Of a stretch of DNA of 56,887 nt, positions 28,426 to 31,710 are shown piece after piece. The notes beneath the pieces were generated by a model. It saw only the letters and a program-made list of their open reading frames with translations, searched no databases and was not told the DNA's origin. This stretch comes from Acidobacteriota bacterium. Lineage in GTDB: Bacteria > Acidobacteriota > Terriglobia > Terriglobales > Acidobacteriaceae. Position numbers and translations under genes: made by a program. Within the stretch, counting starts at the first letter, position 1. Each line of letters opens with the position of its first letter. Location: NCBI GenBank assembly GCA_003225495.1, contig QIAJ01000091.1, positions 1 to 56,887 of the forward strand. The letters run 5' to 3'.

Positions 28426-30201
28426 CTAGTGTGCATCCGAGGGAGTTTCGGCTTTGTCATACATCTCATCGATAAGGGCTCGGTAACGATCTTCGATGCC
28501 GCGCCGGCGAACTTTCATGGAGTGAGTCAAGGTGCCGGCCGATGCGGAAAACTCTTCGGACACGAGCAGGACCCGTTTCAGCTTTTCAAAGCGCGCCAAG
28601 GACTTGTTCGATTCTTCAACAACTCTCTGGTAGAGCTCTTGAACCCTTGGGTTTGCGACTAGTGCTTGGCGCGACGCAAACACAATCTGGTTCGCGCGCG
28701 CCCAATCTTCAAGAACCGGAAAATGGGGCGAGATCAACACCGCTGGGAATTTGCGCCGGTCGCCGAGCACCACCGCGGTACCGATCAGCGGATTCAACTT
28801 CAACGAACTCTCGATCGGCTGGGGGGCGATGAATTTTCCACCAGAAGTCTTGATCAAATCTTTTTTTCGGTCAGTGATGGAGAGATATCCTTCGGCGTCG
28901 AGATTCCCGATGTCGCCGGTCTTGAACCAGCCGTCCACAAAAGCTTCCTGCGTCTCCTGGGGACGATTCCAATATCCCTTGAAGATCGACGGACCGCGCA
29001 CCAGGACTTCACCGTCGTCGGCAATTCGCACCTCCACGTTAGGAAGCGGCTTGCCGACGGTTCCAAGTTTGTGGGCGCGCGGAGTATTCACGGCAATCAC
29101 CGGCGAAGTTTCGGTCAGTCCGTATCCCTCATGAATCCTGATTCCGATATCGGCATACCATTCCGCGAGTTCGCGGCCGAGCGGAGCGCCCCCGGAAATG
29201 AACAGATCGGCCTTCCCGCCCATTCCGGCGCGCACTTTTGAGTAGAGGAGTCGGTCGGCCAGCGACCATGCAAGGGAGCCGGGACTGGTTCCAGCGAGAG
29301 TTTCGTCTCGATGCGCTCGGCCTACAGAGAGCGCCCAACGATAGATTGCACTCTTTGGAAAATCGGCAGTCTTAACAATCACCTGGCGCCGTATCTTTTC
29401 GTATACACGAGGAACGCCTACGAAAATCACCGGCTGAACTTCCGCCAGGACCTCCTCCAGTTTCGACATATCGGGACAATACGCGAGCGCAACACCGCGA
29501 TAGAGAAGCGCAAAGTCTACGTGTCGAGCCGTGACATGTGAGAGGGGAAGAAACGAAATGCTGACCTCGTCATCAGCGAGTCCAAATCCATCCAGAGAAC
29601 ACGAGATGTTAGAGGCCATGTTGCCATGGGTCAGCATGGCGCCCTTGGGGTTCCCAGTGGTGCCGGAGGTGTAGATAATCGTGGCCAGGTCGTCCGGAAG
29701 GATCGCCCGCGCGCGATTTTCGAAATCCACATCAGGCCTCGTCGGACCGTTCAGGAGTAACGGCTGCATCTGCACTGCATGAGCAGTATCGATCGCATCC
29801 ATCACAAGAACGTGCTCAACAGGTATTTGTTGCCGGACCGCCATTATCTTTTCCAATTGAGCCTGCGTCGAGACGGCGATGACGCGCGCGCCACTGTCAT
29901 TGAGAATGAAGGCAGTTTGTTCCGCGGTCTGCGTTGAATAGATAGGGACAGTAACCGCGCCCAGGCTCAGCGTTGCGAAGTCGGTCATCGTCCATTCAGG
30001 ACGATTTTCGCTCAGAATGGCGACTCGGTCGCTTTTGCGAATCCCCCACGAGTCGAGCACCCGAACCAGGCCGACGACATTGCGGTACAGTTCGGACGAT
30101 GAGATCGGTAGCCATCCAGGAGCCTTTCGCTGCATCATGACGCGATCGCGGGAACGCGAGCAAACAGCCAACAGGATGTCGTTCAGAGTTTCCAGGCTCA
30201 T
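28426..30201 (-). CDS. Long-chain fatty acid-CoA ligase (AMP-forming, FAA1/FadD15 type)
   Basis: The 591-aa protein activates fatty acids to acyl-AMP and then acyl-CoA. Motifs in order: the P-loop-like IIYTSGTTGNPKGAMLTHGN, the adenine-binding HEGYGLTETSPV, FKTGDIGNLDAEGYLSITDRKKD with the hinge, and the C-terminal Lys region SGGKFIAPQPIE. The shape of the N-terminal lid and the SDRVAILSENRPEW start are those of the long-chain family found in actinobacteria and acidobacteria. It is divergent from the selenoprotein-like peroxiredoxin gene with about 150 bases between starts. Confidence 0.95.
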   Translation of the reverse strand: MSLETLNDILLAVCSRSRDRVMMQRKAPGWLPISSSELYRNVVGLVRVLDSWGIRKSDRVAILSENRPEWTMTDFATLSLGAVTVPIYSTQTAEQTAFILNDSGARVIAVSTQAQLEKIMAVRQQIPVEHVLVMDAIDTAHAVQMQPLLLNGPTRPDVDFENRARAILPDDLATIIYTSGTTGNPKGAMLTHGNMASNISCSLDGFGLADDEVSISFLPLSHVTARHVDFALLYRGVALAYCPDMSKLEEVLAEVQPVIFVGVPRVYEKIRRQVIVKTADFPKSAIYRWALSVGRAHRDETLAGTSPGSLAWSLADRLLYSKVRAGMGGKADLFISGGAPLGRELAEWYADIGIRIHEGYGLTETSPVIAVNTPRAHKLGTVGKPLPNVEVRIADDGEVLVRGPSIFKGYWNRPQETQEAFVDGWFKTGDIGNLDAEGYLSITDRKKDLIKTSGGKFIAPQPIESSLKLNPLIGTAVVLGDRRKFPAVLISPHFPVLEDWARANQIVFASRQALVANPRVQELYQRVVEESNKSLARFEKLKRVLLVSEEFSASAGTLTHSMKVRRRGIEDRYRALIDEMYDKAETPSDAH

Positions 30202-30352: not shown

Positions 30353-30928
30353 ATGAAGCAGAAGACGATGGTGACGATCATGGGCGCGTGGTTGCTGACA
30401 GCGATGCTGGTGTCGTCAGTTCTTGTTCAGCCGCTCAGGGCTGAAAATCCTTCGGGTCCTATGAAGCTCAAAGTCGGCGACCAGGCGCCCGATTTCAAAC
30501 TTCAATATTTTGATGGGCACGATCTCAAAGATGTTTCTCTGGAACAGTACCGGGGAAAGAAAAACGTCGTGCTGGCGTTTTATATTTTTGCCTTCACCGG
30601 TGGTTGAACGGCACAAATGAAGGCCTTCCAGCAGAGTCTGCAAAAGCTGGAAGCCGCCGACACCCAGGTTCTGGGTGTGAGCATGGACAGTCCCTTCGCC
30701 AACAAGGCTTTTGCCGACTCGATCGGCGTAACCTTCCCGCTTCTGAGTGATTGGGGCGGGGACATCACGCGCCAATACGGCGTATACCTCGACAAGTACA
30801 AAGCCGCCCGACGGATCAACTTCCTGATTGGCAAAGATGGAAAGATCTTGGAAGAACAGTTGGACAGCGCAGCCATTGATCCGACGAAGATTGTGGATGC
30901 GTGCGAGCGGAAAAAAATAAACCGGTAA
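30353..30928 (+). CDS. Exported peroxiredoxin (AhpC/TSA fold) with TGA at the peroxidatic position: putative selenoprotein
   Basis: Read through one TGA (30605-30607), the frame gives a single 191-aa peroxiredoxin. It has a signal peptide (residues 1-30, ending PLRA), then LKVGDQAPDFKL, VVLAFYIFAFTGG-U-TAQMKAF, LGVSMDSPFANKAFADSIGV, FPLLSDWGGDITRQYGVY, and RINFLIGKDGKILEEQ. The TGA falls at residue 85, exactly where thioredoxin-fold peroxidases have the TxxC peroxidatic Cys. Both halves are in the same frame and well conserved, with a SECIS-like hairpin just downstream. Selenocysteine is therefore the best reading; the alternative is a nonsense mutation in a Cys enzyme. A single Cys near the C-terminus (DACERKK) might resolve. 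Start ATG 30353 follows GGGGTGG; an in-frame GTG lies at 30338. It should reduce hydroperoxides in the periplasm. Confidence 0.85.
30622..30655 (+). promoter_or_regulatory. Candidate bacterial SECIS element (SelB-binding hairpin)
   Basis: CTTCCAGC (30625-30632) pairs with GCTGGAAG (30646-30653), extended by GG/CC past a bulged C. Within the loop, GCAG-AGT-CTGC can form the apical part, closely resembling the GCAGGTCTGC apex of the E. coli fdhF element. The apical loop starts 28 nt after the TGA and has a G among its first two bases, as bacterial SECIS elements need. Confidence 0.65.
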
Positions 30929-31062: not shown

Positions 31063-31139
<77 letters not shown>

Positions 31140-31206: not shown

Positions 31207-31710
31207 CTATGCGGTCGCCGTCGCTACAATCGGTTCACTTAAAAGCATTTGTTCAACAATTCTGGCGTTTGCCGCTCTCTTCTGCTCAGACACTGCCTGG
31301 GTGTAAATCTGCAAGGTGGTCTGCACATTCGAGTGCCGTAGAAGTTCCTGTTGCACTTTGATGTCAGTACCGTTTGCCTGTAACAGAGTGGAGTAGGAGT
31401 GTCGCAGACTGGGGCAGCTGATTAGTTTCGTGATCTTCGCTCGTACCGCAGCAGGTTTCACGACTTTCGTCAGCAGACTGTCAGGCCAGCATGGTTCGGC
31501 ACCATCCTCGTACTCGCTGGCGAAAACCCAGTCAGAGTCTGCCCTGTACGGTGTTTTTATGCGCCAATGCTCTAGAACCCTGATGAGTTCAGGTGCGAGT
31601 GGTACTGGCTTGTGACGTCCATTGTCTTAAGTGTTGCCGGCGTGATTGTTGACCACGCCACGCTGAACTGTGAGGCTCTGATCTGCCCAATTGAAATCCG
31701 ACCACTTCAG
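31207..31710 (-). pseudogene. Decayed tyrosine recombinase (phage integrase family), C-terminal catalytic domain
   Basis: On the minus strand one frame reads LKWSDFNWADQSLTVQRGVV, then an in-frame TAA at 31627-31629. It continues DNGRHKPVPLAPELIRVLEHW, DSDWVFASEYEDG, SLRHSYSTLLQANGTD and VQQELLRHSNVQTTLQIYTQ. These are the conserved integrase segments, including the Arg-x-x-His box and the nucleophilic Tyr in QIYTQ. The core-binding N-terminal domain is missing, an internal stop is present, and the usual GWHSLRH is changed to SCPSLRH, so the enzyme is dead. It points towards the adjacent tRNA-fMet gene, the usual arrangement for an element integrated at a tRNA. No matching att repeat is seen. 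Confidence 0.85.

Follow-up and report, generated by a model that had tools for sequence, protein, structure and literature searches.

A predicted exported selenocysteine peroxiredoxin of Acidobacteria with a putative two-part decoding signal displaced about 60 nt from its UGA codon

Introduction

PrxU of Eubacterium acidaminophilum is a selenocysteine (Sec) peroxiredoxin of the AhpC/TSA family with a TxxU motif at its peroxidatic residue, while the solved sequences nearest to the gene described here are AhpE/Bcp-type peroxiredoxins (PDB 2ywn, and Rv2238c, PDB 1xvw, which we take to be the protein named AhpE), with Cys at the same TxxC position. In the accessible text of PMC13188914, peroxiredoxins with TxxU count as an established selenoprotein family and the peroxiredoxin active-site motif is given as PxxxTxxC/U. 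In the bacterial SECIS model of the same text, the hairpin has a loop of 3–9 nt with a G within its first two positions, the loop lies 16–37 nt from the UGA, and the energy is -7.5 or lower. For the E. coli-type SECIS, U17, G23 and U24 are non-varying positions (accessible text of PMC8659212). Since PMC13188914 states in its accessible part that some bacterial SECIS elements fall outside the model, outliers as such are already known. The 2006 survey credits the Acidobacteria with four selenoproteins in three families (accessible text of PMC1794560), and a Sec peroxiredoxin from this group may already be within its list.

Here we analyze one gene in a window of 56,887 nt, positions 1–56,887 of contig QIAJ01000091.1 from an Acidobacteriota genome (assembly GCA_003225495.1). 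A reading of the letters alone, the original prediction, had described the gene as an exported peroxiredoxin with TGA at the peroxidatic cysteine and as a likely new selenoprotein. The word ‘new’ is too strong, because selenoproteins of the TxxU peroxiredoxin family have been described before; the unexpected feature is where the decoding signal appears to lie.

Results

A peroxiredoxin frame interrupted by a conserved TGA

The gene translates into 191 residues with a single internal stop, a TGA at residue 85, and a final TAA codon, which confirms the earlier description of two same-frame halves parted by TGA alone at the peroxidatic position. ORF calling divides the gene as had been foreseen, with one ORF ending at 30607 and a second, of 103 aa, starting at 30617. 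With Cys placed at residue 85, the PF00578 AhpC-TSA domain spans the break from residue 41 to 165 (E 5.6e-35; 120.4 bits against a cut-off of 26). The peroxidatic Cys of solved peroxiredoxins aligns with the TGA codon, so that the gene has an in-frame UGA at the Cys position of its homologues, as is characteristic of selenoproteins.

Table 1. Features of the window gene and its surroundings, and other genes with in-frame TGA in the source genome
Feature	Location	Strand	Basis or remark
Predicted Sec peroxiredoxin gene	30353..30928	+	191 residues, Sec at 85; frame translation, PF00578, TGA conservation
Putative signal peptide, residues 1–30, ...VQPLRA|EN	30353..30442	+	Cleavage site read by eye
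Active-site motif TGGU, UGA (Sec) at 30605–30607	30596..30607	+	TGA in 55/56 and 30/30 loci; T at -3 in 82/82
Candidate spacer stem (stem 1), CUUCCAGC/GCUGGAAG, 13-nt loop	30625..30653	+	93.1% of cells paired; constraint on arms
Alternative proximal hairpin, GCAG-AGU-CUGC	30631..30641	+	27 nt from UGA; present in the window, without conservation across the family
Distal SECIS-like hairpin (hairpin 2), ACACCCAG-GUU-CUGGGUGU, apical loop 30668–30670	30660..30678	+	60 nt after UGA
C184, sole Cys after Sec85, likely resolving Cys	30902..30904	+	Conservation of Cys position
AMP-dependent (acyl-CoA) synthetase-like gene, divergently transcribed	28426..30201	-	Identified by eye
SelD, motif KAAGU	Source genome contig C160 (L019)		In-frame TGA
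Peroxiredoxin, motif DTPGU	Source genome contig C27 (L079)		In-frame TGA
Peroxiredoxin-like protein, motif WUPAC	Source genome contig C88 (L081)		In-frame TGA
Peroxiredoxin, motif WTPTU	Source genome contig C174 (L082)		In-frame TGA

An independent scan of genome contigs found TGA at codon 85 in 55 of 56 loci. These 55 come from records titled as Acidobacteria, or as Terriglobia, Terriglobales, Sulfotelmatobacter or Korobacter, which we take to be lineages within the Acidobacteria, and the sole exception is a distant, non-acidobacterial gene from the Kosmotogaceae with TGT and 41% identity. Further loci carry TGA in 30 of 30 cases, 22 of them new sequences. Across 150 genomes of the order to which the source belongs, every one of the 43 matches at E<=1e-31 carries exactly one TGA, as do 5 of the 15 weaker matches; across 297 genomes of the phylum, each of the 45 matches at E 2.2e-28 or better contains one TGA, and beyond that value the weaker matches among those listed are mixed. 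Close relatives thus carry TGA and not TGC or TGT, and since the same base recurs across independent genomes, the TGA is not a sequencing error.

The genome search that the original prediction had proposed, for selA, selB, selC (tRNA-Sec) and selD, found all of them in the source genome above their curated cut-offs: tRNA-Sec, with anticodon TCA, at 65.9 bits, SelB at 365.9, SelA at 541.9 and SelD, which has an in-frame TGA of its own, at 357.9. At a threshold of 1e-60, SelB is present in 61 of the 150 order genomes and in 41 of the 43 among them that carry the UGA gene; the other two (G118 and G126) have tRNA-Sec and SelD. Together with the TGA of close relatives, this machinery supports the earlier reading of the product as a selenocysteine peroxidase. 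The source genome contains four more genes with in-frame TGA, SelD and three that are peroxiredoxin-like (Table 1); several Sec peroxiredoxins are thus predicted for this one genome.

Were the UGA a genuine stop, the locus would be a pseudogene or would encode an exported fragment of 84 residues, and UGA does double as an ordinary stop here, with 37 of the 56 reading frames ending in it. This is nevertheless highly improbable given the recurrence of UGA at the same catalytic codon (55/56 and 30/30 loci), the single in-frame TGA with a conserved second half in all close matches of both genome scans, the 106 codons that follow the UGA in 53 of 56 loci, and the presence of the Sec machinery. The frame would also stay open if the UGA were read as another amino acid, by a recoded stop or as Trp, but genes here terminate in that very codon, and the site is the catalytic Cys position in a genome with tRNA-Sec, SelA, SelB and SelD; we give this reading almost no credence. 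On these grounds, pseudogene, sequencing error and other UGA reassignment were all rejected. That the gene encodes an exported selenocysteine peroxiredoxin, a protein of known kind, is on these comparisons nearly certain.

Export signal and active site

By a crude heuristic test, the N-terminus is signal-like in 55 of 56 genes, the window gene among them, which supports the extracytoplasmic product that had been proposed. Downstream of the Sec there is exactly one Cys, at the same C-terminal place, in all 82 main-family genes, in all three orthologues of family f26 and in all 29 other orthologues. This single conserved Cys indicates a Sec–Cys pair, in which C184 is likely the resolving partner of Sec85. 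The Thr three residues ahead of the Sec is invariant in the main family. A conserved active-site Arg is a feature of AhpC/TSA peroxiredoxins, and R153 and R154 are invariant in our 19-row alignment A4, with the pattern RR..[FYL]L found in 77 of 82 main-family genes.

The gene shares with PrxU the AhpC/TSA family and the TxxU at the peroxidatic residue. Four residues before the Thr, where the PxxxTxxU motif has Pro, 80 of the 82 main-family genes carry Ile or Val (I 48, V 32, F 1, P 1); the 29 other orthologues have V 22, P 5, I 1 and L 1, and the Sec forms of a paralogue described below have Pro in 22 of 25. The signal peptide and the conserved C-terminal Cys also set the window gene apart from PrxU, as judged from the side of the window family alone, and the NCBIfam PrxU model NF040737 gives it 78 bits, far below the cut-off of 270. 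Compared with the AhpE/Bcp-type peroxiredoxins, the family has Sec in place of Cys and an export signal. Ser (AGC) occupies the peroxidatic position in the peroxiredoxin relatives L167, L168, L169 and L181, the last on contig C47 of the source genome.

Gene neighborhood

Among 12 loci read by eye, a divergent acyl-CoA synthetase-like ORF similar to that of the window lies upstream in 10. We regard this neighbor as conserved but probably no functional part of the peroxiredoxin system. Downstream, no gene is common to the 12 loci, although two of them share one. In the window a tRNA-Met gene lies at 31063–31139, followed at 31207–31461 by a short minus-strand ORF that by eye resembles the C-terminus of a tyrosine recombinase and is possibly a remnant of an element inserted beside the tRNA-Met. 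A longer recombinase-like ORF, also recognized by eye, is found downstream in the relative L022.

A constrained hairpin 60 nt from the UGA

We applied the SECIS model (as given in the accessible text of PMC13188914) with our own script to the 82 main-family genes. Within 16–37 nt of the UGA, a fit is found in only 4 of 82, the window gene included, one of the four at 27 nt. At 50–66 nt, by contrast, all 82 genes have a fitting hairpin, at 60 nt in 71 genes, 59 nt in 10 and 56 nt in one. This distal hairpin (hairpin 2) resembles the bacterial SECIS consensus in being stable, with a small apical loop beginning G-U and a stem of 7–8 bp in most genes, but it differs in lying 59–60 nt from the UGA, outside the canonical spacing, with a conserved stem (stem 1) in between. 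The original prediction had invoked a hairpin right after the codon; the window does have a small one there, which is not conserved, whereas the hairpin conserved in the family lies about 60 nt downstream, behind stem 1. In 63 of 82 genes, hairpin 2 has exactly the sequence ACACCCAG-GUN-CUGGGUGU; its loop starts with G-U in all 82 as well as in all 25 Sec forms of the paralogue.

The paired cells of an 81-sequence alignment amount to 98.9% for hairpin 2 and 93.1% for stem 1, and RNAalifold recovers both stems from the 81 rows, with a covariation term of only -0.1. Covariation within hairpin 2 is thin: 2 of 8 pairs show a double change, each in a single sequence, and 6 of the 81 sequences do not form the closing pair. 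Because the main family is too uniform for covariation alone to suffice, we turned to synonymous constraint, to codon shuffling and to differences between subfamilies. Same-codon identity, defined as the share of gene pairs with the same amino acid that also use the identical codon, was computed for 53 of the 56 genes; it has a median of 0.52 over 12-codon windows and reaches 0.83 in the one starting at codon +14. Constraint peaks at the arms of stem 1 (codons +7 to +9 and +14 to +15) and at the distal hairpin (codons +17 to +25, with a dip at the loop codon +21), and isolated codons outside the element, such as -1, +33 and +36, also rise above background. Under codon shuffling at the codon usage of the family, 5.7% of genes would be expected to have a hairpin of 7 bp or more at the distal site, and 60 of 60 have one; a scan of the rest of the gene in three-codon steps gave such a hairpin in 19 of 53 genes at best. 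The distal hairpin is held by synonymous-site constraint and is no by-product of the protein sequence. A fold of 59 nt around and after the TGA, a stretch that stops short of the distal hairpin, gave z = -1.55, and an Rfam scan of the gene returned no relevant family, with two chance-like matches below threshold.

The same measurements bear on a different assignment within a Sec peroxiredoxin, in which stem 1, or the GCAG-AGU-CUGC hairpin of the window, would be the SECIS and the distal hairpin an accessory, for example a pause or stability element. Stem 1 is conserved and starts near the canonical position, and the window has its model match at 27 nt. However, the 13-nt loop of stem 1 exceeds the 3–9 nt of the model and is little constrained (same-codon identity 0.32 at codon +11), codon shuffling alone yields a stem of this kind 51% of the time against 59 of 60 observed, and the constrained G-U loop belongs to the distal hairpin. 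A proximal match is also confined to the four main-family genes noted above, and among the phylum orthologues that we fetched (f26 and the other families) proximal and distal hairpins hardly ever occur together. We consider a proximal SECIS unlikely and favor hairpin 2 as the candidate SECIS.

Placement of the signal in orthologues, a paralogue and SelD

For the phylum orthologues, 29 loci were examined, covering the best phylum matches only. Outside families f1 and f26, a proximal hairpin is present in 20 of 21 orthologues and a distal one in none of the 21; 18 of the 20 proximal hairpins lie at 22–23 nt, mostly with an AUCA-GGC/GUC-UGAU-like core. In contrast, all three f26 orthologues have the distal hairpin at 60 nt, one of them with a strong proximal match as well. 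Seven f2 genes together with G077 have the proximal hairpin in 8 of 8 cases, with an additional distal match at 65–66 nt in 3 of 8. With the signal proximal in the other families and distal in f1 and f26, the decoding signal appears to have moved by about 37 nt within one orthologous gene.

The distal placement recurs in a paralogue, a divergent Sec peroxiredoxin with the motif WTPTU that is about 39% identical and has its source-genome copy on contig C174. All 25 of its Sec forms have the distal hairpin with a G-U loop at 60–61 nt; 20 of the 25 reach an energy of -7.5 or lower and so count as stable, where codon shuffling led us to expect 8.4%, and the other five retain a CCAG-GUN-CUGG core. 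Of 18 Cys forms, two have a stable distal hairpin, which in one of the two lies in a different register, and none of 4 Ser forms has one. Base 3 of codon 18 and base 1 of codon 24 form a C-G pair in 75 of 82 main-family genes and another standard pair in six, and fail to pair in one. Among the paralogue Sec forms these two bases are always paired, as U-A in 22 and as C-G in three, and 5 of 18 Cys forms have a standard pair here. Fisher values computed for this pair take no account of relatedness, and we do not read them as probabilities. The SECIS model itself discriminates poorly for the paralogue, because 14 of 25 Sec forms match in the proximal zone and the Cys forms match in both zones (7 of 18 proximal, 10 of 18 distal) at scattered positions. 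As Cys forms are less similar overall, part of the contrast between Sec and Cys forms may reflect ancestry. Three Cys-form WTPTU genes, L150 (the same gene as L106, in G090), L154 (G099) and L155 (G125), equal some Sec forms in their similarity to the query. L150, the Cys form nearest to the query, still has the distal hairpin, which may be left over from a change from Sec to Cys. Within the matched region of another WTPTU match, L139 (G146:C3), there is a single TGA along with a single TAA.

SelD was compared at 31 loci, the best 30 of the order and that of the source genome. Its 20 TGA forms all match the model in the proximal zone, mostly as GUCCGGC-GGY-GCUGGAC at 19–20 nt, and two of them match in the distal zone as well. 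The match count is weakly specific since Cys forms match too (9 of 11 proximal, 1 of 11 distal); the hairpin sequence common to most Sec forms is the better guide. One SelD with TGT, L219 (G124), shares the proximal hairpin of the Sec forms and is a candidate for a recent change from Sec to Cys. In the source genome, the WUPAC gene L081 has its hairpin at 17 nt. With the hairpins of SelD and L081 proximal, the displaced signal looks specific to particular genes and does not look like a genome-wide shift, in which case one SelB would have to serve both placements.

Discussion

We propose that SelB would deliver Sec-tRNA-Sec at the UGA at 30605, letting the chain run on to 191 residues, and that the product would then lose its signal peptide and be exported. 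Sec85 would reduce peroxide and most likely be resolved by C184 as a selenenylsulfide. Recoding would be directed by a two-part RNA element, stem 1 followed by a SelB-binding hairpin 2 with a loop of GUN or G-GU-N. Stem 1 spans 29 nt (columns 21–49 of alignment A3), and with it folded the path from the UGA to the distal loop shortens from 60 nt to about 31 nt, within the usual 16–37; stem 1 could thus act as a spacer that lets SelB on the distal hairpin reach the ribosome. Translation through the UGA, passage out of the cytoplasm, catalysis by Sec85 with its resolution, and recognition of hairpin 2 by SelB are steps that we infer from the comparisons above. Taken as a whole, this account of an exported Sec peroxidase with C184 as resolving residue, recoded by means of a spacer stem and a distal SelB-binding hairpin, seems to us likely to be right. 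Viewed by itself, the displaced two-part SECIS is probable on the sequence evidence.

In full-text searches of an open-access library, we found no description of a SECIS displaced to about 60 nt, nor did we find one in the accessible portions of PMC13188914, PMC9312934, PMC5029168, PMC1794560, PMC1088965, PMC12013277 and PMC8659212. More likely than not, the element represents a distinct class of bacterial SECIS, with its SelB-binding hairpin 60 nt off and brought into range by a spacer helix; it would have been relocated within one orthologous gene and would be common to a second Sec-peroxiredoxin subfamily while SelD keeps the ordinary form. If so, SelB would measure folded and not linear distance. 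If the distal hairpin works in this way, the accepted distance rule for bacterial Sec insertion changes. A natural experiment is also at hand, since the signal occupies either of two sites among orthologues of a single gene.

For genome annotation, ordinary gene calling loses genes of this type by splitting them at the UGA, and a SECIS finder limited to 16–37 nt would miss 78 of the 82 family members, as counted with our own implementation of the model. Acidobacteria are a group common in soil. The product of this gene would be an exported selenoenzyme, tying the use of selenium in these bacteria to extracytoplasmic peroxide defence.
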